Virus record (IMG/VR): IMGVR_UViG_3300020222_000158
Location: 1 to 26,279 of that record
DNA length: 26,279 bases
Reading direction: 5' to 3' (one strand)
From: a virus
The notes below the pieces were generated by a model. It had not been told where the DNA came from. It made no database searches and was given only the letters and a program-made list of their open reading frames with translations. The position numbers and the translations under genes were made by a program. How positions within the stretch are numbered: position 1 is the first letter of the stretch; each line of letters starts with the position of its first letter. Shown one piece after another: positions 5,307 through 26,189 of this stretch.

Positions 5307-8300
5307 AAGTGTTGCCAAGACAGATACATTTGAACAGCAACGATTAAAAATTAACGAAATTGCCAATGAGCTGTTTTTAGTTCAAACTTCTGTTGGTCAA
5401 GGTGCTTTCAGTATGAGTGATGGAACAGTGCAATCTCCAGCACTGTTTTTTACAAATGCAACTGATGTAGGAATTTATAGGGGAAGTTCTGGAAAACAAT
5501 TAATAATTGGTGCAGAAGGGAGTGCTGTAGCATCTTTTAATTCTTCACATTTGACTGCTTTACAACCAATAAGAACTTTATCTTCCGTAATACCAACAGG
5601 AAATGCATCATTAACAATTTCAAATCCTGGTTCTTTATACAATATTGGCACTTATCCAAAAGCAAAATTATCAGGTGGTTCTGGAAATGGAGCTAGAGCA
5701 TCTGTTGTTGTTTCTGTTGTTGGGAATATAACTAATGGCGGAAGTAGTTATGCCGCAGGTAATTATTCTGATGTCCCTCTAACGCAGGGATCTGGAACTG
5801 GTATGCGAGCCAGTATCACAGTTACTGCTTTTGATGGATCTGTAACTGCAGCAGGAACTGGAGGATCAAGTACATCAACATTTAACAACGTTTCATTAAC
5901 AACTATTACTGGCACAGGTACTGGTGCCGTTGCAACTATTAGTACTAATCAGTTTGGACCTAATATTGGGGTTGGAACTGTTACAATTACAAGTGTTGGT
6001 TCTGGTTATCAGCCTGGTGATATTCTTTCTGCGGCACCTGGAAGTATTGGAGGAGTTACTGGATTTAATTATACATTAACTGGATCTGGCAATGTTTCAC
6101 AATTAACAGTTACTTCTGGTGGTTCTGGATATACAGTTGGGAATGTTTTATCTGTCAATAATACAAATTTGGGCGGATCTGGAAGTGGATTACAATATAC
6201 TATCACTTCAATTGGAGCAATATCAAGCATATCCGTTACTAATGGTGGCGATAATTATAAGACTGGTGATATATTAACAATATCACAGTCAGAATTAGTT
6301 GAAACAGTTACAACTTATGTAAAAATTCTTCCTACACAACTTATAGAATTTACAGGAACTTTGCCAACTACTGGATTTACAGTTGGTAGTACTGTAACTT
6401 ACAATGGGGCAACTGCTACTGTTGTAAAAGTATTTACAACTGGGTCGTCAATAAATGCTGTTACAGTAAATGAGTTTGATTTAGTTTTCGCTAATGGTTT
6501 AACCGCATCTTCTGGTGGAGCGACTGCTACAGTATCTGCAATCACAAATGCGTTAAATTATTTCTTTAGCCCTACGCCTAGTGGTACATATACAAATATC
6601 CCAGATTTTACATTCCAGAAAAATAAAAGATTTGAATTTGTTCAATCAGATCCTACAAATATTGGTCACCCATTACGTTTTAGTACAACAAGAGATGGAT
6701 TTCATACAGTTGTTGTGCCAAATCCAACAGAATATGGTGAAAAATATGAGGGATCAGAAGTAGATTACAGTTATACTTCAAATTCTCTTGCTATCATTCC
6801 AAACGATAGTACTCCAACAACGCTTTATTACTATTGTGATGCTGGATTTGAAGGTGGAAACGCACACTTAGATGAGGGCGGGTATAATAATAGAGAGGGT
6901 GTTATTACTATAAGTGGGTCCGCCCCATTAGTTGGCAGTGGAATTTCTTTAACAGTTGGAACAGTAACAGAATCTTCAAATATAATATTAGAAAAAGATG
7001 GCACTAGTTTATTAGGAAATACTACTACTGGTGAGTTAGTTGTTGTTGGGGACTTGGAAGTTAATGGAGATTCTATTTTCTTTGGAGATCTCAATGTAAG
7101 TAATAATTTTACTATTGCTGCAGCGACTGGAAATACTGCAATCGCTGGTACGCTTACAGTAAATGATGATCTATCATTTTTATCAGATGCCGCATTTGGA
7201 TCGACTTTATATGTTGATTCTGTTAACAACAAAGTATCTGTAAATATAGATCCCGCAGTAACTCCACTAACTTATCAATTTGAAGTTGATGGTGATGTAA
7301 AAAATACTGGAGATGCATATCTTTCTTCTGCTTCTGGAAAATATGTTAGAATTGGAGATATTGCTAATCTAGCTGGAACTTCAAGATTGCAAGTTGATGG
7401 TTCTATTTCTTCTACTAATGGATATAGAACATCACCATCTAATGACATTAAAATACCATCATACACATTCACTGGTAACACAAGATATGGTATTGGATTT
7501 AATAGTAGTTCTCTCACATTATCCGCAACTGTTGGAAATGGAGAATCTCTGAGATTTGGAGATTTAGTTACTACTTCATACAGAGATTTAAATTTTGATT
7601 ATAAAGTTGTTACTAGCACATCTATAACTGGTGGTAGTGGATATACAAATGGATCTTATAGTGGTATTCAACCGACTGGTGGATCTGGAACTGGATTTAC
7701 AATCGATGCCACAGTTTCTGGAAATGCTTTAACTGGAATTGTAGTTACAGATAGTGGAGTTGGTTATGAAGTTGGAGACGTTCTTACTGTCAATTTAGCA
7801 GGCATTCCAGGTGCCACTGGAGCAACAGTAACAATTACAAATACAACAATCACAAATACAATTTCAGCTGTTGTCTCAACTGGAACGATTACTGTTAATG
7901 CTCTTAATACTGTTGGATCTGGTATTCTAGTAGATAATAAATTATCAATTGACGGAACTTCAATATCTTCAACTCAAGATGAAGACATTACTGTTGTTCC
8001 AGGAGCTTCTTCTAGATTACTTTCTGTTTCTGGAACTGGTGGTGTAAAACTTCCAGTTGGTAATTCTACAAATAGACCATCTGCTACAACTGCTGGTATT
8101 ATTAGATATAATACTCAAACTTCTCAATATGAAGGATCTAATGGCGTTAACTTCATTTCTCTTGGTGGTGTAAGAGACGTTGATGGAAATACTTTCATTA
8201 TTGCTGAAGAAACTGTTGGTGAAAACGATAATGTATTGTATTTTTATAACGATGGTGCGAATTCTGCAAGATTAAAGAGAACAGAATTAGAACTTGTAAC

Positions 8301-9138
8301 TGCTCTAAAAATTTCGGCAAAAGACACTGAAAATAAAACACTATGGAAACCATCCACTGCACTTACTTTAAACACATATGTATATTTTGGTGATAACATT
8401 TATGAGGTAACATCAGCAGGGACAACAGGATCAACTGGTCCATCTCATACCACTGGTGCTGCTGAAAATGGATCCGCAACCTTAACTTGGATCAGTGATA
8501 GTTATACTAATTTAGAAATTCGTGGAGACGAAATAAAATTAGGAACCAGAGTAAATATTAATGATAAATTAAACATCTATGGATATGGCAGCGGGGCGCA
8601 GAGTTTAATTTTAGAAAATACATTACTTACTACAAAATTTGCTTTTGGTAATATTTTAGGGGTTCCTGATACATTACTAACAGTGAACGGGGCAAATGGT
8701 AGTCTAGAAATTAATAGAAATTATGATACATCCAGTGTAGAAAATAATATTTCCATCTTAGATAAGACACTGAAATTCTTCCAATTAAATGATGTTCGTA
8801 ATGAAACATTTTCAGATACTTTAACTAAGGGAACGAGTGAAATTACAGCAACAACCTGTATAGACGTGGCACAACATTCTTCGGCAAAAATATTTTTATC
8901 TGTACACAACATAACAACAGGGGATAAGCAAGTTGCTGAATACAATGTCATTGCTAAAGATTCTGATATTGTTGCCGTGGAGTATGGTAACATAAATACG
9001 GGTAATACTGATTTATATGCTGCTGCGTTTGATTTTGATGTAACTAGCAATGTTCGTATTACTATAACTCTTTCATCTGGAGTTGCGAATGGTAATATTG
9101 TAAAAATAGTTGTTAACAAAATTCAAATTAAAACGTAA
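5293..9138 (+). CDS. large tail-fibre-like virion protein (1281 aa)
   Basis: The N-terminus ([20 protein letters not shown], then [22 protein letters not shown] near residues 43-64) is the attachment-type N-terminus I associate with cyanophage fibre or baseplate-associated structural proteins. Residues 105-335 and 773-855 carry GxGY beta-repeats. Residues 410-550 contain a compact, aromatic-rich segment ([23 protein letters not shown]) that could be a small folded domain. Residues 575-700 have the repeating [17 protein letters not shown]-like pattern of trimeric fibre shafts. A W/Y module lies at 1018-1066. The ATG overlaps the upstream stop by 14 bases, and the 168-aa gene starts seven bases after its stop. 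No enzyme motif is visible. It is probably a trimeric host-contact or baseplate-linked fibre. Confidence 0.85.
5608..6300 (+). repeat. GxGY beta-repeat array
   Basis: Five or more degenerate copies are visible at protein level: [46 protein letters not shown] and [12 protein letters not shown]. Spacing is roughly 30-45 residues. The later copies form a GDxL variant distinct from the APxI variant seen in other proteins of this window. DNA similarity between copies is low, so the duplications are old or the unit is kept by selection on protein structure. Confidence 0.7.
7612..7854 (+). repeat. second GxGY repeat pair in the 1281-aa protein
   Basis: Two copies are visible: [15 protein letters not shown] followed by [13 protein letters not shown], and [15 protein letters not shown]. 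They are of the same two sub-types as the array 1.5 kb upstream, here inserted after a shaft-like region. Limits are approximate. Confidence 0.62.
8344..8490 (+). repeat. W/Y module, copy 1
   Basis: The protein pattern is W-x4-A/N-x-N-T-x-F/Y-F-x-D-N-I-Y-x-V-x-S-G-T-T-G-S-x-x-P-x-H-T-T-G, with NGS and a closing W or V. Related copies occur twice in the 2960-aa fibre. It resembles the short aromatic carbohydrate-binding-like modules common in phage fibres. Glycan binding is inference. Confidence 0.55.
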
Positions 9139-12700: not shown

Positions 12701-15700
12701 AGTCGAAGCAGCAAAAAGATATAGAACTAATGGAGTTCTGGGTTATGTTGGAAATGAATTAGCATGGACAGTTAGATCGATTAATGTCGCAAGACTGCTA
12801 TGTCTATATGCTATGCGTAATTGGAATTTGAATAGTGGATTATATAATCAAATTGATTATGTACCACAATTTTCTACACTGCCACGTTACGTTGATGGAA
12901 CAGTATCAGAAGATACTAGTGGAGCTGGATCTACAGGTTTCACATGTAGTAATGTTGCTAGTGCTATTGATACTTTAGCATATCTTTATGCTGATATTTT
13001 ATCAAATAAGCAAAACCCAAATACTCCCTCAATTAGCACTAGGAATGATGCTGGTTATCTCATCATGCGTAATGCTGATTTCATCGCATCTGAGGCACTT
13101 GGATTTGCTAAAGCATTATTCCCAACACTTGGGTTAACATCAGATCAAGAAAGAAAGTGTAAGAGAGATATTCGAATTGTATTACAGGGTCTTACACGAG
13201 ATATAATTGCTGGAGGGAACAGTGGAATTGTAACTGCCGCAGAGTCTTACTTTACTGGAGCAACACTAACTGGTCTACCAGCAAATGAACTTACAGCAAC
13301 TAGATATGCTTTTACTAAGGTTGCGGAATTAGCAATTCTTGCAATGAGAAATTGGAAGACAGGAACTGATGGTACTGGCGCTCTTTATATTCCAGTACAT
13401 GAAACTGTTATTCCTTTACAAAGAGAGTATGGTCCAGTAGGAAATATTCAAGAAATAGTTTTAGTTGACCCCGCTGCAAATAAGTGCGCTACTATTGTAG
13501 CTGCTATCAACACAGAGATGGGAATATTTGATAGTATTTTAAGTGGTTCTGTTACACCAGGAACAATAGCAAAAACCTACGGCACTTTATATGATCCAAC
13601 TATTACATATCCAGAAAATGTAATGGTTGATCAAGATGGATTTTATATTACTCCCAGAGGAAGATGGGATGATCTACCTTTCATTGAAGGATCGCCATAT
13701 ATCCAAAATGCTTCTGTAATTTCATTCTTAGGAGGTGGTGGATGTGAAATTGATGGATCAAAAGTTAAATCACCAAACTGTCCTTTCCCTGGTTTAGAGC
13801 AAGATGGAAAAGCAAGTAATCCAAATCAAGGAAAATCAATGGTTGCTGCTCAGTTTACCATTGTTTCTTTTGGTGGGGTTGGTTATAAAATCAATAATGA
13901 TGGATATGCTCAATTAGTTTCCGTATTCGTTCTATTCTGTGCTGATGGTGTATTAGCAGAATCTGGTGGATATGTTTCTATTACCAACGCAGCAACTAAC
14001 TTCGGACTTTATGCGTTGCGTGCTGTAGGATATAGAAAAGACCCATATGTATTTGATGTTGGAAAAATTAAAGAAATTAGTGAGACAATTACTGGAAGAA
14101 CAATTTTAAAAGTTGAATTACTTGGAAGAAAACCACTAGAGCATTATGTTATAAAAATTCCTGGGTACGTCAATCAAACTGAAGCAATAGAATATACTAT
14201 TGAAAAAGTAACCTCTTCTTCTATTGGTCCAATTTTTGAATCGACATTTGAAGTTAATGCTGCAATGATGCTGAAGAGATCTTCAGATAATGTACTATTC
14301 AATGCTCCACTAAGTACGGCTGAATTTGTTGGGAAAACAATCAATTTTCTTAGACCATCCATTGTTAACTCTTCAGGACATACTTGGGAATATGCTGGTT
14401 CTGGAATTAATTATAATGCATTACCAGAAAATGGTGGTATAAAAAAAGAATTATTCGAACAGGTATCCGAGAATTATGGGCGTGTATATACCTCAGGTAC
14501 TGATGAACTTGGTGACTTCAAAGTAGGTTACTTTGCTAAGATTGAAAACAGAACTGGTAATATTACATTCACTGGTACAGTTTCGATCTCGGAAGTTGAA
14601 TTCCTTAAGTTGAAAGGTGGCGACGTTGTTGTTACTGGATTTTCTGCTGATAATACTTTAGGTGGTGCTAATGCATTAAATAGTCTACTACCAACTCAAA
14701 AAGCAGTTAAGGATTATATTACAACAAATCTTGGCTCATATGTCAATAAACCATTCTCTACAAATGCTATTCCTAGAGCACTTGTAGAACTCACAGACAG
14801 TGGTAAGATCTCTATTGACCAAATTCCTGCTTTAAGACCATTTAGCGTCTTTACGGTTGCTGATCAATCAGAGAGATTAAATCTTGAAGGAGCCCTAGCT
14901 GGTGACATTGCTATTCAAGCAGATACAAGCACCTCATTTATTTTGAATAATGACTTAAGTAGTCTTTTTGCAGCATTCCCAGTCAATACATCATTACAGT
15001 TTACAATCAATAATCTATTTACTTCTAGTCCAAGTGGTGCTCAAATTCAAGCAAAAGAATATAGACAGGGTGTAGTTTTTCAAATTAATCTTACTAACGC
15101 TGGATCTGGATATACGCAAGCACCAAATATAAGTTTTAGTAACCCACAACAATCTGGTGGGGTTTTACCAACTGCGGTAGCTACTATAGCAAATGGACAA
15201 GTTACAAGTATCAAAATTACATCAAATGGTGGAATATTTGGTGGTAGAGGATACACTTCTGCGCCTACTATTACTATAGCGTCTCCTGGTGGAGCTGGAA
15301 TAACTGCTACAGCAATAGCTTTACTTGAAAGTAGGTTATATGGCGATATCACTAATAATAAAAAAGTACTTGATACCGATACAATCCTATCTTCAAATTC
15401 AACACCAGTTCTTGTAGACATTAGTAGAGTTGTTAATACTTCATCATTCATTGCATCAAACTGGGTTTCACTTTCATCTAATCAAGTTGCCGCAGATCAA
15501 ATTACCAGTGGTGTAATTTCAACTTCAAGATTAGCAACAAATGCGGGTGCTGCAAACTCGTTCACATTCTTAAGAGGCGATCAGTCATATGTAAAAGCAA
15601 CTCAAACAATTAGAGGAACTGAAACACGTTATTTTGTAAAAACCTCATCTTCAACAGGGGCTGGTGGTCAACAATTATTCTTTACAGAATCAAATGCTGC

Positions 15701-18625: not shown

Positions 18626-20602
18626 ATGGCGAATTCTGATAAGGATATCATTATAACGCCTAATAGAAATCAGGCGGCACTACCAGAAATTAGATTTGTT
18701 GGTACGGGAAATTCTCCTCGTTTACTTAGAGTAAATGATGACAATAGTTTAGCATTTTTAAATAATAGTGGAACCGAACGATTTTCTATCAATGAAGATT
18801 TAATAAGAACTAGTTTATCAGCTAGCGGCAATTTTAGAGTTAATAATAGTGGAGGAACAACTTTATTTAATATAAAAAATAGCACTAATACTATTGAGAT
18901 CGGTGCTGCTGGAACTGGTGTTGCTATGGTTGGAGGAGTGACGGCGGCGACTTCACCAAAATTAGCAATCGTCCAAACAACAGCAGGAACAAGATATTCT
19001 TTACAGTTACAAGTTAATGGTGGTATTGCTGACGGTCAGTATGATGGTGTTGGATTTACTCAAGGTGACGCTGGCGGAACTCCTCTTGCTGGTATTAGAG
19101 TTGAATATAGAAATAGTGGAAGTCCTGATTTAGGAGTTTATACCAGAAGTGGTGCTACTACTGAATCTAGAAAAATAATGATCTGGAACTCTGGTAATGT
19201 TTCTATTGGTACGGCAGATCAAACACAATATACTCGTTTAAGCGTTCTTGGAGGTTCTGGTATTACTATTAGGGCAGATAGTTCATCGACAAATAATCAG
19301 TATATTTATTTCAGACAAGCACCAAATGATTACGGTTTCCGTATTACACAAGACGATTCTTCAGTTGGTATGCTTTTCTTTAGAGCAGTTGATAATGGAA
19401 ATAATACTAACCCATTAATTACTTTAGATAGACCAACATTAAGAGTTGGTATTGGTAATTTTAGTACAACTACAAGACCTGGATATCAACTTGATGTTGC
19501 TGGTGATATTAATACAACTGGAGAATTTAGAAAGAACGGAGCTGTATTTAGTCCACTACCAACTCAAAGTGCTTCAACTATTGGTGCTACGTTAAGAAGT
19601 AATGGCACAACCGCATTCTGGGATGTACAAACTTCTTTCAGTGGAACCACAGGGGTCACAAATGCTGCTGGCACTGCTTCTGGAACTGTTACTACTCTTC
19701 CATATAATGCAGAAGATAGATACAGAGTTGGGTTCCAAATTTCCAGAGGATACGCTATGGCTGGATATAAAGATAGCGTCTCTTATAAAAACGTGTGCTC
19801 TATAAATCATGGTACAATTACTCTTGTCAATCACGGAGATTTATTAACAAACGGTCAGGGATATTGCGCTGGAGCACAAAATCTTAGTATGCAAGCATAT
19901 GTATTCATTGCAGTTAATGGTGTTGGTGGAACAGGTAGTACGTGTTCTAAAATTAATATGAATAACAGTTCAAACGCAGGTACTACTAGTATTAATAATA
20001 ATAGATCAGCGACTTCTTTAATGAGGAGGGATTTTAGATTTGCTTATGTTTATGGTGGTGGTGATAGTAGACCAAGTAAATTTAATTTATCTAATGACAC
20101 TTGTGCATTTTCTCCAAATGGAAATCCTGCAGGAGATGAAAATAATCCTGCTGGAGCACATGGAGCAACTTATGGGTGGAGCAGAAGGAATGGTGCGTAT
20201 TTATTCTCCTGGGCAAATGAAACATTTGCTGCTTGGCCTAATGCTCCTGGAGGTGATGGAACAAACAAAACATTATCTGCAAGACACGGATTTAATTATT
20301 GGAATACTGCTGGTGGATACAGAACTTCTGCGAATTTATCTAAAAGAAGTTCATATACAGGAACAGAAGCAACTCAAGTTAGTAAATTTGAATGTGGGGA
20401 AGAAACATGGCATACTGGTATGGATAAGGGATTTATGTGTGGAATGTATGATGGAGCTCAGAAAAATACTGGGGCGGTTTTAAACTATGCTGCAGAAACA
20501 TTTTCTGCAAATAGTTCTATAGATAGAGTAGGTCCTCCTGGATCTGCTTCTGGCGCAGGTGCTGAATTCGGGACAGTTCTTACAGGTTACGACGGTATTT
20601 AA
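18626..20602 (+). CDS. tail fibre with probable beta-propeller-like tip (658 aa)
   Basis: Residues 1-320 are a fibre shaft: LPEIRFVGTGNSPRLLRVND, LAFLNNSGTERFSIN, then VGIGNFSTTTRPGYQLDVAG and a FRKNGAVFSPLPTQSASTIG linker. From about residue 365 the composition changes: Trp, Tyr, Cys, His and Gly become common and blade-like units appear, each with a strand phrase followed by a turn (GYAMAGYKD near 375, YVFIAVNG near 424, FAYVYGGGD near 472, AYLFSWANE near 524, GFNYWNTAGGYR near 554, GFMCGMYDG near 602). I associate such units with kelch- or propeller-like tips of cyanophage fibres. The tip has six or more cysteines, rare elsewhere in these fibres. It has its own late promoter. The next gene starts two bases after its stop. 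It is probably the receptor-binding fibre. Confidence 0.83.
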   Translation: MANSDKDIIITPNRNQAALPEIRFVGTGNSPRLLRVNDDNSLAFLNNSGTERFSINEDLIRTSLSASGNFRVNNSGGTTLFNIKNSTNTIEIGAAGTGVAMVGGVTAATSPKLAIVQTTAGTRYSLQLQVNGGIADGQYDGVGFTQGDAGGTPLAGIRVEYRNSGSPDLGVYTRSGATTESRKIMIWNSGNVSIGTADQTQYTRLSVLGGSGITIRADSSSTNNQYIYFRQAPNDYGFRITQDDSSVGMLFFRAVDNGNNTNPLITLDRPTLRVGIGNFSTTTRPGYQLDVAGDINTTGEFRKNGAVFSPLPTQSASTIGATLRSNGTTAFWDVQTSFSGTTGVTNAAGTASGTVTTLPYNAEDRYRVGFQISRGYAMAGYKDSVSYKNVCSINHGTITLVNHGDLLTNGQGYCAGAQNLSMQAYVFIAVNGVGGTGSTCSKINMNNSSNAGTTSINNNRSATSLMRRDFRFAYVYGGGDSRPSKFNLSNDTCAFSPNGNPAGDENNPAGAHGATYGWSRRNGAYLFSWANETFAAWPNAPGGDGTNKTLSARHGFNYWNTAGGYRTSANLSKRSSYTGTEATQVSKFECGEETWHTGMDKGFMCGMYDGAQKNTGAVLNYAAETFSANSSIDRVGPPGSASGAGAEFGTVLTGYDGI

Positions 20603-20604
20603 AA

Positions 20605-21375
20605 ATGAGAAAATATTTTTTAACTAACTGCACTGAGGTATCTAAGTTATACTCATTTCATTCTCATGGAAATATTTTAGGATGGATTTTCTTTTCTGTA
20701 GAAAAGATTGATTTTGAAAAATTAAAATTATATGCTTCTTCAAAATTAATTGAAGTAGAAAAATATGTAGCGATATATGGTATTAAATCTTGGGGAGATG
20801 TTAGAGATGTAATTTCTGTTTATTCAATCGATATTGATAATGATAATGAGTTTGAAGATGAGATTGATATTCTATCTTTAATACCAGAAGGTACTGAATT
20901 AACTCCTCTGGACAAAGTAAAAATTCCATTATCTGAAAAAAGAAAACTTGTTGTTATTAAAGCAATGAAATTAGTAGCAAAAATGTTAGTTGAAACCGAA
21001 TATGATAGAAGATATCAAGATTTTATTTCCAGAACCTCTATTTTAGAGAGAGAAAGTTGGAAGTATCAAATTTCTGACAACTCATTTAGGAACTCATTAG
21101 CTGTGTTAAAGGGGAAGGAGGAGGAAGAATTTTCCGAAGTTATAATTACAAAGCAGTCTTCGTATGAGGCGGAAGTAAAACGTTTATATATAGAGTGTCA
21201 GGAATTAAAACAAAAATTCTATGACGCAGAAACAATAAGAGAACTAAATCTTTTGTATGAAGATTATTTCAATCTTCCAATGCACGGGCGACAAGCAATA
21301 GAAATTGGAAGAGAAATAGTAAATGAAGACAAGCCAAACGAAAGAAAAAATGTTGGCATTGGTATAAATTTTTAA
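20605..21375 (+). CDS. unknown charged helical protein, possible fibre-assembly factor
   Basis: I do not recognise a family. The 256-residue protein begins two bases after the 658-aa fibre, so it is translated with it. Residues 1-80 look like a small alpha/beta domain (NILGWIFFSVEKIDFEKLKL, then VAIYGIKSWGDVRDVISVYS). An acidic patch follows (DIDNDNEFEDEID, about 76-88). Residues 108-160 and 185-235 are long amphipathic helices, separated by a Glu-run (GKEEEEFSE near 170). There is no signal peptide, membrane segment or cysteine cluster. Position directly behind a fibre gene is typical of fibre chaperones, so an assembly role is reasonable inference, though it lacks any resemblance that I can see to T4 gp38 or gp57A. 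Confidence 0.68.
   Translation: MRKYFLTNCTEVSKLYSFHSHGNILGWIFFSVEKIDFEKLKLYASSKLIEVEKYVAIYGIKSWGDVRDVISVYSIDIDNDNEFEDEIDILSLIPEGTELTPLDKVKIPLSEKRKLVVIKAMKLVAKMLVETEYDRRYQDFISRTSILERESWKYQISDNSFRNSLAVLKGKEEEEFSEVIITKQSSYEAEVKRLYIECQELKQKFYDAETIRELNLLYEDYFNLPMHGRQAIEIGREIVNEDKPNERKNVGIGINF
21363..21370 (+). promoter_or_regulatory. possible late promoter (TATAAATT)
   Basis: It has seven of eight matches to the late consensus and lies at the 3' end of the 256-aa gene, 34 bases before the next ATG, a spacing like the better promoters here. In AT-rich coding sequence such a match can arise by chance. Confidence 0.3.
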
Positions 21376-21404
21376 TTTTTTAATATACAAACTTGAGAAT
21401 TAAT

Positions 21405-22199
21405 ATGGCACTTGATAGAGATACTGTTGAAAAAATTGCTAGAAAATGGAGCTCTGGTATGTCAACAGAGCAAATGGATTGGTATGTAATTCACTCGCAT
21501 GTTACTAAAGATAGGCAAATCAAACAGTGTTTATTAGAGATAGAAAATAGATCTCATAATTTAGACAAGGTTAGTATAGAAAAAAGAAAGCATGATATAA
21601 AATATAAGCAAATACAGGCAGAGTTAGAAAAAGAGAGTGACCCATATGAAAGACAATTATTAGAATTAGAATTAGAAAGTATGGATCTTGATTTCAATGT
21701 TTTCAATAGAAGAGTTGAAACTATGAAAAAGGAACTTAATGTATTCTATGATCATTTAATCAAGTTAGATATCGATGAAGCAGAGTTAGAAAAAAAATTA
21801 GAATACGATCCAACAGAAGAAAGAAAATATTGGATCGCTCGTATGGGGAAACAAGCAGCATTGGATTTTATTGTTCAAGGAAGAATAGGAACTGGCAATT
21901 TAGATTCCATTGCTATGATGTCAGAACAAGATCAACAAGCTATTTTTGAAGTTGCTATTCAATATTCATCATTATTCAACGTCAGTATGAATAAGATACA
22001 ACAAAAACTTGCTCCCTATATAAACGAGTTACAAAAATCAAATTCAAATGCTCTTCCAACTTTTCATGGTATAGAAGAGAATTTTGAAGTTTCTTTATTG
22101 AGTGAATTAAAAACTGTGAGGGGTGAACTAAATGAATCGAAATCAAATCCAACACCGTCAAAAAATCTTCAGCTTACCTATAAACCCAAAACTTCCTGA
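21405..22199 (+). CDS. conserved phage helical coiled-coil protein (264 aa)
   Basis: I choose ATG 21405 over the in-frame TTG 21393 because it gives the start MALDRDTVEKIARKW, which fits homologues I recall from marine T4-like phages, and because GAG at 21395-21397 lies eight bases before it. Residues 14-45 include MSTEQMDWYVIHSHV. Residues 45-135 are a long charged coiled coil. Residues 138-180 hold the most conserved-looking part (EERKYWIARMGKQAALDFI, then GTGNLDSIAMM). The C-terminus is a poorly ordered Ser/Asn/Pro tail that overlaps the next gene by 68 bases. No enzymatic motif is visible. A structural or assembly role in the virion is inferred from position; it has no assigned T4 counterpart that I can name. 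Confidence 0.72.
   Translation: MALDRDTVEKIARKWSSGMSTEQMDWYVIHSHVTKDRQIKQCLLEIENRSHNLDKVSIEKRKHDIKYKQIQAELEKESDPYERQLLELELESMDLDFNVFNRRVETMKKELNVFYDHLIKLDIDEAELEKKLEYDPTEERKYWIARMGKQAALDFIVQGRIGTGNLDSIAMMSEQDQQAIFEVAIQYSSLFNVSMNKIQQKLAPYINELQKSNSNALPTFHGIEENFEVSLLSELKTVRGELNESKSNPTPSKNLQLTYKPKTS
22118..22123 (+). promoter_or_regulatory. strong ribosome binding site that fixes an overlapping start
   Basis: GAGGGG lies eight bases before ATG 22132, inside the end of the upstream gene. It is the clearest Shine-Dalgarno in the window and supports the unusual 68-base gene overlap as real. Confidence 0.7.
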
Positions 22200-23844
22200 A
22201 GATTTTGTAGAAAATATTTTTATCCCATTTCTTCAAGAAAATAAAGAATATATTTTTGATTTGTATTTTACTTGCCGAATGCCTCCTTTTGAACAAGATG
22301 CTATGGGGGATAATTTTGTAAATGCAAAAGATACAACATTTGGTGCTTTTTACATTTCCAAGAAAACTGGAATTCCCTTATCAGCAACTTTTAATAATAT
22401 ATTTGTTAGACCAGATCAAGAAAATTTAGATTTATTCATAAAAAATTTTAAATTTGTTTATGACAGAGGAGTTAAAATAGCAACTATTCCCCATACTTCT
22501 TGGTTGATGACTGGTCAAATCCAAAAAGAATTTCCAGAATTGTTTATAAAAAATACAATTTTACGAGAAGTAACTAGACCAAATGAAATTGTATCTTTAG
22601 CAAAAGCAGGATTTCACTATATAAATCTTGATAGAGATTTGATGAGAGATAGAGATCAACTTCTTCGTATTATAGAAGCAAAAAATTATTGCGCTTCTAT
22701 AGGAAAACCAATTAAATTATCATTACTTGCAAATGAAAATTGCTGGGGTGGATGCCCTATTATGCCAGAGCATTATCATTATAATAACACAAGGGGAATT
22801 GATAACCCAGAATTTTTTGCTGATGCAATAAGTAGAACTTCTTGTTCTACTTGGGATATATTAGATTCATCCCATTCATTAAAAGCTGCTAATATTCCAC
22901 CATGGAGAGAAGATTGGCAGGAATTTTTAGATCTCGGAATAGATGTTTTTAAGATGCATGGTAGAGAAACTGCTTTGCGTTTGAAAGAAAGTATGGATAT
23001 AATCAAAAATTGGTCCAACAATGAGATTTATTTGTTTCCAAATTTTAATGAGTTTATACATGATATTCATATAGAAAATAAACCTATTGATATTTGGAGA
23101 GATAAAATTAAAAACTGCAAGTTTGATTGCTGGAAATGTAATTACTGCGAATCTGTTATAGAATCTAGAGTTAAAAAATATGATAGAGATCATCATCCAT
23201 ATGTTTATCATGTAATAAATTCTTTGGATAAATCTGGGAAAAACCAATCAAAATTTGATGATACAAAATATCAAATTGAAGGTCTTACCTCTGGCAGAGT
23301 TCAACATTTTTTAAATAACATATGTTCTTTAAATGATGTAAGATATTTAGAAATAGGAGCATATGCTGGTAGCACATTTTTTGCGGCTACAATGAATAAT
23401 AATATTCCAGCGTATGCCGTAGATAACTATCTTGTTAATGTGTCTCCAGCAAGATTAGATATAAAATGGAATGGATACTCTGCTCCAAAAGTAAATTTTT
23501 TAAAAAATCAATCAAAGTATAAAATAGGAAAACTGATCGACAAAAAAATAGAACACGTTGGCATTTATGATATTGATAATAAAAAAGTGAATGTAATTTT
23601 TTATGATGGCAATCATGATTATGAGGAACAAAAAAAATCTCTATCTTCTATGCTAAAATTAGTTGAAGATATTTTTATCTTAATTATTGATGATGCCAAT
23701 TTTACAGATGTAGTAAAATCTGCAAAAGATTTTATTACAGAAAATAATCTCACATCATTATATGAAAATCAATTATTAACAACAACATATGAAGATGCCA
23801 ATAGTTGGTGGAATGGTTTGTTTATATCGGTACTAAAAAAATGA
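22132..23844 (+). CDS. fusion: U32-peptidase-like Fe-S barrel + class I methyltransferase
   Basis: Residues about 40-345 look like the U32-like TIM-barrel family. They show NENCWGGCPIMPEHYHYN (201-218), the strand phrase LGIDVFKMHGRE (268-279, like the usual GxxyFKLxGR) and a C-terminal cysteine set CKFDCWKCNYC (329-339), with Cys204, Cys208, Cys238, Cys329, Cys333, Cys336 and Cys339 as candidate Fe-S ligands. The family includes hydroxylases of tRNA, rRNA and quinones rather than true peptidases. Residues about 380-570 are a class I SAM methyltransferase of the Methyltransf_24 type: motif I YLEIGAYAGSTFF (405-417), acidic AVDN (429-432), FYDGNHDYEEQKKS (490-503) and LIIDDANF (517-524). The start is set by a strong ribosome site. 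The stop overlaps the next start (ATGA). The substrate is unknown; hydroxylation followed by methylation is an inference. Confidence 0.78.
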   Translation: MNRNQIQHRQKIFSLPINPKLPEDFVENIFIPFLQENKEYIFDLYFTCRMPPFEQDAMGDNFVNAKDTTFGAFYISKKTGIPLSATFNNIFVRPDQENLDLFIKNFKFVYDRGVKIATIPHTSWLMTGQIQKEFPELFIKNTILREVTRPNEIVSLAKAGFHYINLDRDLMRDRDQLLRIIEAKNYCASIGKPIKLSLLANENCWGGCPIMPEHYHYNNTRGIDNPEFFADAISRTSCSTWDILDSSHSLKAANIPPWREDWQEFLDLGIDVFKMHGRETALRLKESMDIIKNWSNNEIYLFPNFNEFIHDIHIENKPIDIWRDKIKNCKFDCWKCNYCESVIESRVKKYDRDHHPYVYHVINSLDKSGKNQSKFDDTKYQIEGLTSGRVQHFLNNICSLNDVRYLEIGAYAGSTFFAATMNNNIPAYAVDNYLVNVSPARLDIKWNGYSAPKVNFLKNQSKYKIGKLIDKKIEHVGIYDIDNKKVNVIFYDGNHDYEEQKKSLSSMLKLVEDIFILIIDDANFTDVVKSAKDFITENNLTSLYENQLLTTTYEDANSWWNGLFISVLKK

Positions 23845-24491
23845 AATTGTTTGATATCTTTCCATGTCCTATTTTTGGAACACAATATCCAGAACATCAA
23901 TGTCTAAAGAAAAAAGTTTTAGAAATTGTAGAAACTCATATAGATGACTTTGAAGAAAATATTTCCTCAAAAAATCTACTTCATTTTAAAAACAGATTAG
24001 ATCAATCAATTTTATATGATCCGATATTTTCGGATTTTAAAATTTGGTTAGAAGATATGTGTTATAATTACATCACTTCCCTTTTGGGATATGAACTACC
24101 TGATAAAGTTATTGTTACAGATAGTTGGTTGAATAAATGTAATGCTGGCGGTGAGCAAATGGCCCACTATCATTCAAATTCATTTGTATCTGGAACATAT
24201 TATTTAAATTTTGATCCAGAGAAACATTCTCCTATAATGTTTAATAAAAAATCTACTTTATCTCATCCACATCAACCCTCTATTTCATTATTGCAAAAGG
24301 AAGATTTCATCACGAAATACAATTCAGATTCTATTGTTTATCCAGAAGAAGGAGAAGTTTATCTTTGGGAGTCACATATGTCACATTCTGTTCCAAAAAA
24401 TTTAGCAGATAACAGAATTACTTTATCAATGAATTTTATGCCGACAGTTGTTAGTAATTCTAGATATGGTTTTAAGGTGAGATATACATAA
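23841..24491 (+). CDS. 2-oxoglutarate/Fe(II)-dependent oxygenase (first of two)
   Basis: The start ATG 23841 overlaps the previous stop as ATGA; a longer frame from 23805 lacks this logic and would run deep into the upstream gene. The 216-residue protein shows the double-stranded beta-helix pattern of the phage 2OG-FeII oxygenase family (PF13759 type): MAHYHSNSFVSGTYYLNF with His109/His111 as the first iron-ligand region, EEGEVYLWESHMSHSVPKN with distal His182, and NRITLSMNF with Arg192 as the likely 2-oxoglutarate anchor. The N-terminus (FDIFPCPIFGTQYP) is also typical. Such enzymes hydroxylate protein side chains, nucleobases or small molecules; the substrate is not visible. The stop overlaps the next start (TAATG), so expression is coupled with the cassette. 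Confidence 0.85.
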   Translation: MKLFDIFPCPIFGTQYPEHQCLKKKVLEIVETHIDDFEENISSKNLLHFKNRLDQSILYDPIFSDFKIWLEDMCYNYITSLLGYELPDKVIVTDSWLNKCNAGGEQMAHYHSNSFVSGTYYLNFDPEKHSPIMFNKKSTLSHPHQPSISLLQKEDFITKYNSDSIVYPEEGEVYLWESHMSHSVPKNLADNRITLSMNFMPTVVSNSRYGFKVRYT

Positions 24492-25288
24492 TGTCAATAG
24501 ATTTTATGGACATAAAGAATAGATTTGCAGATGAACTATGGGACATAGGTATTCTAAATGGTTCCGAATATAAAAAAGTATTAAATTCTCCAGTAAAAGC
24601 AGCTTGTCACTTTAAAGGAGAAATGCTAACGAATAGACTTCAAGCACCATATCAATCTAACAACACATTAGTTCTTGCAAGATCTTCAAAAGTTGCTGCA
24701 GATTATTCCCTATATGAAGAAGCTTGTGTGTTATTAAAAGATTATATTGATTCTGGTATCTGTATTCAAGTTTATTTAAACTTTAAAGAAGCAGCAATAT
24801 ATTCGGGTCTTGGAGTACGAGCAAAAAACTCGTTGGTTTATAATAAAAAATTTGGATTTCAATGTAAATTATGTGCTTTTGTATTTTTGGAAGATATTCT
24901 TAATTTTCCAAAACCAGAAATCAACCGACAAATGTTGAATTTATGCGATGGATGCAACGACTGCATAAACAACTGCCCTGCAAATGCTATACATGAAGAT
25001 TTTATAGATGGAAATGCTTGTGATACTTTTGTAGGAGTTGGTAACAGTGATAAACAAATTTCATTAAAGTGGTTTTGGTATGAATTATTAAAACCAGATA
25101 TTCCAAGAGAAGTTGTATCTTCCTGGAAAACATTAGATGACTTTAAAAATATTGTTTGGTATAATGGATATGAAATGACAGCAAATGGATTGATGAAAGA
25201 TGGCAAGGTTATAGAAATGCCGCTATGTCGTCTATGTCAAGAACAACCAAAATGTAGCAAGAGACCGATAGATGGAGCAGAAATGTGA
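24491..25288 (+). CDS. QueG-like protein with two predicted 4Fe-4S clusters
   Basis: The 265-residue protein has the core of the epoxyqueuosine reductase/reductive dehalogenase group. AAIYSGLGVRAKNSLVYNKK (101-120) matches the AGLGWxGKN phrase. It is followed by a ferredoxin motif CDGCNDCINNCP with Cys152, Cys155, Cys158 and Cys162. FIDGNACDTF (171-180) resembles the LDARRCIS phrase, and CRLCQEQPKC gives Cys246, Cys249 and Cys255. With Cys177 this makes eight cysteines for two clusters in the QueG order. It is shorter than cellular QueG (commonly 350-380 residues) and lacks the C-terminal HEAT-like part. I cannot identify a cobalamin site. It is therefore likely an Fe-S reductase or electron carrier; action on queuosine itself is only one option. 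It starts on TAATG and its stop overlaps the next GTG. Confidence 0.8.
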   Translation: MSIDFMDIKNRFADELWDIGILNGSEYKKVLNSPVKAACHFKGEMLTNRLQAPYQSNNTLVLARSSKVAADYSLYEEACVLLKDYIDSGICIQVYLNFKEAAIYSGLGVRAKNSLVYNKKFGFQCKLCAFVFLEDILNFPKPEINRQMLNLCDGCNDCINNCPANAIHEDFIDGNACDTFVGVGNSDKQISLKWFWYELLKPDIPREVVSSWKTLDDFKNIVWYNGYEMTANGLMKDGKVIEMPLCRLCQEQPKCSKRPIDGAEM

Positions 25289-25929
25289 CGTTTACTTTAA
25301 ATGATGAAATTACAGAATCAAAACTAGAATGGAATGTAACTCCATTGTTTTCAAAAGTATTATCTATTGCAGAAATAGATAATAATACGTGTTCAAATTT
25401 ACAAAAAATTTGCTCTACAGTTTCATGGATAGATGATAATCAAGAAACTGGACATCTAAGTGGATATTCTGAAAATAGAGAAATATTGGACAAATACTTA
25501 GGTATAAAACAATATTTAAACTCTGTCTCTCTTAGCTGTATGAAAGGTATTTTAAATTTTGATACTGAGATACAGATCACAACTTCTTGGTTTACAAGAA
25601 CTTTCAAGAACGGATATTGTACAGAGCATTCTCATTGCAATTCTTGGTATAGTGCTGTTTTATATTTTGGAGACTATGATGATAATTCTTCTAAGATTAT
25701 GTTTAAAACTGATTCTCCCAGAATATTAGTAAATCAACTCAAAAATAATTTTCTTAATTCTACATGGTTGACATTATCTCCACAACAAGGTATGATAATA
25801 ATCTTTCCAAGCGAAGTCAGGCATTTGGTAACTCCAAACAATTCAGAAAATATTAGATATTCTTTATCATTCAATATAATGCCAAGAGGAACCGTTGGAA
25901 AGGGTGATTCTTCATTTACTTATAAATAA
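25285..25929 (+). CDS. 2-oxoglutarate/Fe(II)-dependent oxygenase (second of two)
   Basis: GTG 25285 overlaps the upstream stop (GTGA), and the next in-frame ATG is about 85 codons further on, so the GTG start is favoured. The 214-residue protein has YCTEHSHCNSWYSAVLYFGD with His115/His117, PQQGMIIIFPSEVRHLVTP with distal His180, and NIRYSLSFNIMPRG with Arg191. These are the iron and 2-oxoglutarate positions of the same oxygenase family as the gene at 23841. Identity outside the motifs is low, and the N-terminal 90 residues differ (LEWNVTPLFSKVLSI, then WIDDNQETGHLSGY), so this is a diverged paralogue or an independent acquisition, likely with another substrate or site. The stop codon lies inside a late promoter for the next gene. 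Confidence 0.84.
   Translation: MTFTLNDEITESKLEWNVTPLFSKVLSIAEIDNNTCSNLQKICSTVSWIDDNQETGHLSGYSENREILDKYLGIKQYLNSVSLSCMKGILNFDTEIQITTSWFTRTFKNGYCTEHSHCNSWYSAVLYFGDYDDNSSKIMFKTDSPRILVNQLKNNFLNSTWLTLSPQQGMIIIFPSEVRHLVTPNNSENIRYSLSFNIMPRGTVGKGDSSFTYK
25921..25928 (+). promoter_or_regulatory. T4-type late promoter (TATAAATA) over a stop codon
   Basis: It is an exact consensus match. It contains two bases of the TAA stop of the second oxygenase gene (25927-25929), with the ATG of the 63-aa gene 28 bases later. The predicted start is near 25934. Confidence 0.75.
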
Positions 25930-25956
25930 CAATACACACGATTACTTGTGATTACC

Positions 25957-26148
25957 ATGGACACTGCAACACTCAAGAAAAACTTTGAAGAGCAACTTGC
26001 TACGACTGATAAGCAAATTGCTGACCTCGAAGAAAATATTGCTAAGGCAAGAGAATATAGACTGAAACTACAAGGCGGTTTAGAAACTCTAACTCTTCTA
26101 GAACCAGAAGCAGAAACAGAAGAAGCACCTACAGAAGTTGTAGAATAA
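25957..26148 (+). CDS. small coiled-coil phage protein (63 aa)
   Basis: I choose ATG 25957 (MDTATLKKNFEEQ) over GTG 25948 because homologues I recall from cyanophages begin with this phrase. Residues 3-45 form a single coiled coil (LATTDKQIADLEENIAKARE). Residues 46-63 form an acidic tail (EPEAETEEAPTEVVE). Proteins of this kind occur immediately before neck gene 13 in marine T4-like phages. There is no strong ribosome site; the ATG context TTACCATGG is shared with the gene at 9145. A late promoter precedes it and a terminator follows its stop by eight bases, so it forms a one-gene late unit. Function is unknown. Confidence 0.75.
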   Translation: MDTATLKKNFEEQLATTDKQIADLEENIAKAREYRLKLQGGLETLTLLEPEAETEEAPTEVVE

Positions 26149-26156
26149 TCTCAGAT

Positions 26157-26189
26157 CCCTTCTTACTAAATATGTAAGAAGGGTTTTTT
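26157..26189 (+). terminator. intrinsic terminator with a perfect 10-bp stem
   Basis: CCCTTCTTAC (26157-26166) pairs without mismatch with GTAAGAAGGG (26174-26183), leaving a 7-base loop TAAATAT and six T residues (26184-26189). It acts on the + strand only, because the opposite strand lacks a T-run. It would end transcripts of the enzyme cassette and the 63-aa gene before gene 13. Confidence 0.88.
26166..26172 (+). promoter_or_regulatory. late promoter (CTAAATA) in the terminator loop
   Basis: CTAAATA consists of the last stem base and six of the seven loop bases of the terminator. The gene 13 ATG lies 24 bases downstream. The predicted start is near 26178, in the 3' arm, so RNA from this promoter could not fold the hairpin. 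The motif equals the one at 9654. Confidence 0.6.

Follow-up and report, generated by a model that had tools for sequence, protein, structure and literature searches.

A compact QueG/RdhA-superfamily protein and a variable enzyme slot beside the fibre genes of an uncultured virus

We analysed the 26,279-nt virus record IMGVR_UViG_3300020222_000158 of a marine phage, called the window here, whose positions serve as coordinates throughout. Four consecutive open reading frames on its plus strand, g1 to g4 (22132-25929), overlap one another by 4, 1 and 4 bases, which confirms the arrangement described in an original prediction from this DNA; all features of the window named below lie on the same strand. 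g1 (22132..23844) encodes a 570-residue fusion assigned to phrog_1458 and T4-GC 354, g2 (23841..24491) a 216-residue protein of phrog_81 that resembles PF13759 2-oxoglutarate (2OG)-Fe(II) oxygenases, g3 (24491..25288) a 265-residue protein, and g4 (25285..25929) a second PF13759 2OG-Fe(II) oxygenase-like protein of 214 residues. Two findings are central. By its predicted features, g3 forms a compact, phage-borne branch within the QueG/RdhA superfamily, with putative ligands for two [4Fe-4S] clusters. Furthermore, g1 is the constant enzyme of a fibre neighbourhood, whereas the enzymes encoded from there to gene 13 can be exchanged and are for the most part Fe(II) oxygenases and flavin halogenases; this stretch is called the slot below.

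g3 and the QueG/RdhA superfamily

Homologues of g3 were found in 78 uncultured viral loci of IMG/VR, which form 48 clusters, while three different g3 members used as queries gave zero matches in 50,697 phage records. The best NCBIfam matches of g3 are QueG (TIGR00276, 1.1e-8) and reductive dehalogenase (RDH; TIGR02486, 3.1e-7), and these two profiles come first for 18 of the 18 family members that were aligned. Both matches are below cut-off, with 34 bits against 200 for QueG and 30.6 against 160.35 for RDH. Profile-profile comparison by hhalign, with QueG and RdhA alignments built in this analysis, returned 97.0% for QueG and 97.6% for RdhA (98.5% for RdhA in the global alignment), at local scores of 81 and 92.6, respectively, compared with 24 or less for column shuffles (no more than 23.4 in 20 shuffles for RdhA). 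The reverse search of 101 Chloroflexota genomes recovered QueG/RdhA-type proteins, as judged by match length and position.

Eight cysteines of g3 are invariant or nearly so (47-48 of the 48 clusters) and make up two predicted [4Fe-4S] ligand sets. The first, C152xxC155xxC158xxxC162P plus C177 (24944..25021), is kept in 47-48 clusters and the second, C246-R-x-C249-x-x-Q-P-x-C255 (25226..25255), in all 48; in a global profile alignment the latter coincides with the second RdhA cluster motif. Residues Y72, N97 and K99 are likewise invariant or nearly so. In the alignment with QueG, Y72 takes the place of the active-site Tyr-101 and N97 that of Asp-130 (S. thermophilus numbering), the residue that corresponds to Asn-272 of RdhA in the published account of active-site roles (PMC4646009). 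The RdhA pair Tyr-246/Asn-272 (S. multivorans) is assigned by way of QueG; a direct alignment with RdhA is ambiguous in this loop.

With QueG, g3 shares the core AGLG..GKN..I....G motif, the ligand order CxxCxxCxxxCP...C...CxxC and the aligned active-site tyrosine; it differs in its length (265 residues against 379 in E. coli) and in an aromatic-rich insert between its cluster motifs. In the alignment g3 retains the tyrosine, lacks the DYH histidine and has Asn97 in place of the catalytic aspartate. The C-terminal alpha-helical domain of QueG is also absent from g3, which stops just past the second cluster motif. With the histidine, the aspartate and the C-terminal domain all missing, a role in the queuosine pathway was rejected for g3 from its own sequence. 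RdhA is the best whole-length profile match, with two cluster motifs in common and Tyr and Asn placed by way of QueG as above; in contrast to RdhA, however, g3 lies far below the TIGR02486 cut-off, is some 200 residues short of most RdhAs in the comparison and was found here on viral contigs only. By the tests made, g3 is placed within the superfamily as neither QueG nor RdhA. Its redox core is probably kept, and we infer that it depends on a corrinoid (B12): its sequence core matches that of the class III enzymes QueG and RdhA, in which a nitroreductase-type module holds base-off cobalamin. Of the original description of g3, as a QueG-like protein with two 4Fe-4S clusters, the superfamily survives, now with eight invariant cysteines, and QueG proper does not. 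The literature on phage reductive dehalogenases and phage QueG, covered incompletely, held nothing on a g3-like family, and searches of the same incomplete coverage agree with the earlier remark that no system with this gene set has been described; as far as the searches reach, the phage family appears undescribed.

The fused enzyme g1 and the oxygenases g2 and g4

g1 matches phrog_1458 with a PHROG E of 1.9e-224, and this PHROG carries no function label. It is present in 123 cyanophage isolate records, and because every match covers at least 80% of its length, the fusion is judged from these alignments to be old and stable. In P-SSM4 and P-HM2, g1 is T4-GC 354 and comes after T4-GC 351-353, with a gene order that matches the window. 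Two matches came from species genomes, a Dehalococcoidia metagenome-assembled genome (MAG; RS371, locus L101) and a Euryarchaeota MAG (UBA439, L102). Both lie on virus-like contigs with the same phage fibre-region neighbours, and cellular relatives of g1 were rejected; virus contigs appear to have been binned into these two cellular MAGs.

The AlphaFold2 model of g1 has a mean predicted local distance difference test score (pLDDT) of 82.8. In its N-terminal TIM-barrel domain (22168..23166), residues 8-284 have as their best fold match the U32 protein Mk0906 (5d88; Z 16.3, root-mean-square deviation 3.3 Å, 224 of 247 residues aligned). The domain shares with the U32 enzymes TrhP, RlhA and UbiU/UbiV the TIM-barrel fold, cysteines after strand 6 and, close to the final strand, a K-x-x-G-R motif, here K274-M-H-G-R278. 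Seven cysteines are invariant (C204, C208, C238, C329, C333, C336 and C339) and are putative cluster ligands; their spacing, CX3CX29C plus CX3CX2CX2C, differs from that of U32 proteins, and the lack of a profile match and the fused methyltransferase are further differences. Assignment to U32 by sequence was rejected, with no Pfam match and an hhalign score at the shuffled level, and was retained at the level of fold. Because there is no profile link and the cysteine spacing differs, the modelled domain is best called U32-fold rather than a member of the U32 family.

The C-terminal half of the fusion (23248..23841) is a predicted class I O-methyltransferase domain of COMT/TrmR type, identified by both profile and structure. 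Methyltransf_24 (PF13578) was matched in 30 of 30 g1 relatives (best 2.2e-11), the C-terminus of g1 alone scoring 24.3 bits, below the cut-off of 26.3. Structural matches to COMT (8c9s, Z 16.4) and TrmR (5zw3, Z 16.3), tied with other COMT-type O-methyltransferases, place the domain in the class I COMT-group fold. The invariant FYD and DDAN motifs of g1 align with FID and DN of 3ntv; unlike TrmR and COMT, the methyltransferase of g1 is one half of a fusion. Since the fold scores tie with those of COMTs, TrmR was rejected as a specific relative. The U32-like/methyltransferase fusion that had been proposed is therefore borne out for the U32 fold (5d88) and the COMT/TrmR-like domain, and not for a U32 sequence signature. 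The B. subtilis gene for the ho5U methyltransferase TrmR shares an operon with those for two U32 proteins, TrhP1 and TrhP2 (PMC6599085). As g1 resembles a fused TrhP-TrmR pair, hydroxylation followed by O-methylation would be the most natural guess for its activity.

Both g2 and g4 score well above the PF13759 cut-off of 27 bits (61.9 bits, 8.1e-17, and 67.1 bits, 1.9e-18, respectively), as expected from their original assignment as 2OG-Fe(II) oxygenases, and g4 also exceeds the TIGR02466 cut-off. They belong to a PF13759 group already listed for cyanophage genomes. Their conserved motif is HxH...H...R, where the superfamily triad has HxD/E...H plus a 2OG-binding arginine. Overall, the fold assignments first made from motifs hold in profile and structure searches at the level of fold or superfamily, with the corrections given above.

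Cargo after g1 and the neighbours of g3

Neighbourhoods were compared using mechanically called open reading frames, and oxygenases were detected by profiles that we made from panel sequences. Across 78 non-redundant loci, the gene after g1 belongs to PF13759 in 39, to PF13640 in 8, to the tryptophan halogenases in 8 and to DUF6445 in 7; a 210-residue oxygenase-like protein follows in 4, and the other 12 have another gene or nothing. Four non-homologous families occupy this one slot, and the tryptophan halogenase in L080 was confirmed at 1.4e-90. An oxygenase, halogenase or DUF6445 gene stands next to g1 in 25 of 37 clusters, compared with 1.98 ± 1.23 at random and a maximum of 7 in 5000 draws. 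The theme of oxidation and methylation is statistically real at this site. 2OG oxygenases and PrnA tryptophan halogenases are known from cyanophages, and the fibre region of Syn9 has two halogenases, several oxygenases and one JmjC_2/Cupin_8 protein.

Some cyanophage genes are likely misannotated: those labelled 'DNA endonuclease V' match the PF13640 2OG oxygenases (weakly in Syn9), and those labelled 'minor coat protein' match DUF6445 (Syn9 L202:13415-13933, 14538-15122 and 13930-14541; ACG-2014j L001:1328-1927 and 7700-8410). A family of about 250 residues with no Pfam match lies 3' of tryptophan halogenases, with 0-1 gene between, in three divergent phages (L080:11790-12527, L244:8489-9298 and L202:8571-9359; blastp 1e-24 to 1e-83).

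The four-gene order of the window, followed by gp13, was seen again in independent contigs. In this marine cassette g3 always comes after g2, and g4 is next in most. Across the whole g3 family, a 2OG oxygenase adjoins g3 in 19 of 48 clusters (5.0 ± 1.9 at random, drawing on genes within eight genes of g3), and outside the cassette in 12 of 39 (3.2 ± 1.5); 0 of 5000 draws were as high in either comparison. Two oxygenase families supply these partners, some of which precede g3 while others follow it. PF13759 or PF13640 oxygenases stand beside it in L118, L226, L227, L231, L237, L244, L248, L257 and L258, most of them checked against Pfam, and a tryptophan halogenase adjoins it twice, in L244 and L230. 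The data support a pairing of g3 and 2OG oxygenases that recurs across several gene neighbourhoods unrelated to one another. Strict co-occurrence of all four genes, by which the original prediction was to be checked, does not hold, and this narrower pairing does.

Other g3 neighbourhoods were also noted. In L257 (5027-6011) and L258 (5068-6001), two related genes that look cupin-like by eye lie upstream of the g3-2OG pair; the one tested had no Pfam match, and relatives occur in L268. In L229 (4940-8531) a g3 homologue lies between proteins resembling T4 gp47 and gp46, and in L117 (1-3144) another follows genes resembling nrdA and nrdB. In the 192-kb contig G001, two PF13759 genes adjoin g1, and 60 kb separate g1 from g3. 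Because this contig also encodes psbA, found in no other of the g1/g3 contigs examined (the rest being fragments), G001 is probably a cyanophage.

The original claim of one modification pathway with a redox donor is unsupported in that form. The four genes do not stay together: g1 is common with different cargo or none, g4 is absent from two cassettes (L006 and L111), and g3 can lie far from g1, as in G001, or, in other viruses, with no g1 nearby. A reductase with a substrate of its own is as likely a role for g3 as that of donor.

Upstream of the cassette, a fibre-like protein of 658 residues, rich in Ser, Thr, Asn and Gly (18626..20602), keeps the same position across nearly all g1 loci; it matches ACG-2014j gp93 by blastp (4e-14) and is a relative of the cyanophage 'sericin 1 precursor-like' protein (T4-GC 351). 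Between it and g1 lies a conserved phrog_1604 protein of 256 residues with no assigned role (20605..21375), followed by a phrog_1409 protein of 268 residues, also with no assigned role (21393..22199), which adjoins g1 on its 5' side. g1 starts at the ATG at 22132, preceded by a GAGGGG-like site, and shares 68 bases with this upstream gene. Beyond g4, an acidic, coiled-coil-like phrog_580 protein of 66 residues (25948..26148) is the last operon gene before gp13. In related contigs it lies directly 5' of gp13, and most comparable g1 loci retain it irrespective of cargo. Downstream of the operon is a terminator-like hairpin of 10 pairs followed by T6 (26157..26183), for which position is the sole support, as such sites are no more numerous in the region than in shuffles.

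Candidate substrates of the cassette

We tentatively favour, at somewhat less than even confidence, a modular late-operon tailoring site that would most likely act on fibre or adhesin proteins. If g1 behaves like the bacterial TrhP-TrmR pair, it would hydroxylate and then O-methylate an aromatic or other ring, and g2 and g4, using O2 and 2-oxoglutarate, would hydroxylate it elsewhere. The clusters of g3, probably with a corrinoid, would drive a single reduction, either of that substrate or of a product that is over-oxidised or halogenated. The substrate would be the fibre or adhesin protein encoded just upstream, here the 658-residue candidate, which is the weakest step; exchange of cargo would then alter receptor-binding surfaces between related phages. 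A fibre target is preferred because the fibre neighbour is constant and because families of peptidyl-hydroxylase type (JmjC_2, Cupin_8) occur in the region in Syn9. A bolder version is doubtful: that g3 represents an undescribed, minimal class III corrinoid/Fe-S reductase family in marine and freshwater viruses, which joins 2OG oxygenases and flavin halogenases in tailoring virion adhesins, with the slot swapping receptor-surface chemistry.

Several observations weigh against this tailoring of fibres. Strict co-occurrence of the four genes was rejected. The neighbourhood statistics come from fragmentary contigs and are only partly corrected for shared ancestry. For g1, none of 30 relatives matched U32 in Pfam (PF01136), the hhalign score against U32 was 19.5 with a shuffled maximum of 19.4, and the four-cysteine motif CX6CX15CX3/4C of U32 proteins (PMC6747719) is not found at C204/C208/C238 or C329-C339, which are spaced otherwise. 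Because HxH replaces the usual HxD/E, the iron and 2OG dependence of g2 and g4 is assumed from the family name. The AlphaFold2 model of g3 is poor (11 sequences, pLDDT 54.6), and a fold search with it gave nothing below E 0.19; the weak matches, nitroreductases and two QueG entries, do not count as evidence. Finally, g3 adjoins nrdAB in L117 and lies between gp47 and gp46 in L229, and such a place among DNA and nucleotide genes fits poorly with a fibre substrate for g3.

Alternatively, the slot before gene 13 may be an insertion hot spot whose four enzymes serve separate host pathways, such as those of small molecules, nitrogen or redox metabolism. The content of the slot is indeed highly variable, the four families are found apart as well, and 2OG oxygenases are common in cyanophages anyway, according to the parts of the papers available (PMC3037559, PMC9964418). 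Those parts, with that of PMC2984593, propose DNA repair, 2-oxoglutarate metabolism and antibiotic protection as roles of cyanophage oxygenases and halogenases, the first two of which would suit unlinked cargo, and contain no link of these enzymes to fibres or to g1. However, the 25 of 37 clusters with an oxygenase, halogenase or DUF6445 gene are not a random auxiliary sample, g1 is constant, and the adjacency of g3 and 2OG oxygenases recurs in unrelated neighbourhoods, which makes such an explanation rather unlikely.

An RNA target is a little less probable still. Here g1 would be TrhP and TrmR in one protein, converting pyrimidines in the tRNA or rRNA of infected cells to hydroxy- and then methoxy-pyrimidines, g3 a QueG-like tRNA reductase, and the oxygenases would act on nucleic acid, with the fibre neighbourhood an incidental late operon. 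It draws on the U32/TrmR analogy and the QueG relationship: the structural matches that score best for g1 include the U32 fold as well as TrmR, trhP1, trhP2 and trmR share one B. subtilis operon (PMC6599085), tRNA is the substrate of QueG (PMC4646009), and some g3 homologues lie among nucleic-acid genes. On the other hand, TrmR ties with small-molecule COMTs, so that the fold does not choose the substrate; g3 has neither the QueG-specific C-terminal domain nor the DYH histidine; E162, C170 and C177 of TrhP have no equivalent by spacing in g1; and the presence of tryptophan halogenases and DUF6445 in the slot does not point to RNA. Small molecules are a third option for the target, besides fibre proteins and RNA.

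Very unlikely is that g3 is a true reductive dehalogenase reversing or limiting phage or host halogenation, with the oxygenases acting on the same aromatic scaffold: RdhA is its closest known profile, and halogenases occur in the g1 slot of other phages and beside g3 in L244 and L230, but g3 is much shorter than most RdhAs and scores far below the RDH cut-off, and no halogenase was found in the long, though fragmentary, contigs with both g3 and g1 (G001 and G003-G005).

The reason for the wealth of oxygenases and tryptophan halogenases in cyanophages is an open question. The crowding of such enzymes into a single slot, which follows a conserved hydroxylase-like/methyltransferase fusion and is close to fibre genes, turns this question into a testable hypothesis, with T4-GC 351-354 of P-SSM4 and P-HM2 as named genes in cultured phages. 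If g3 binds a corrinoid, it would tie phages to cobamide chemistry. Taken together, the cassette suggests that these viruses chemically tailor something late in infection, perhaps their own fibres.

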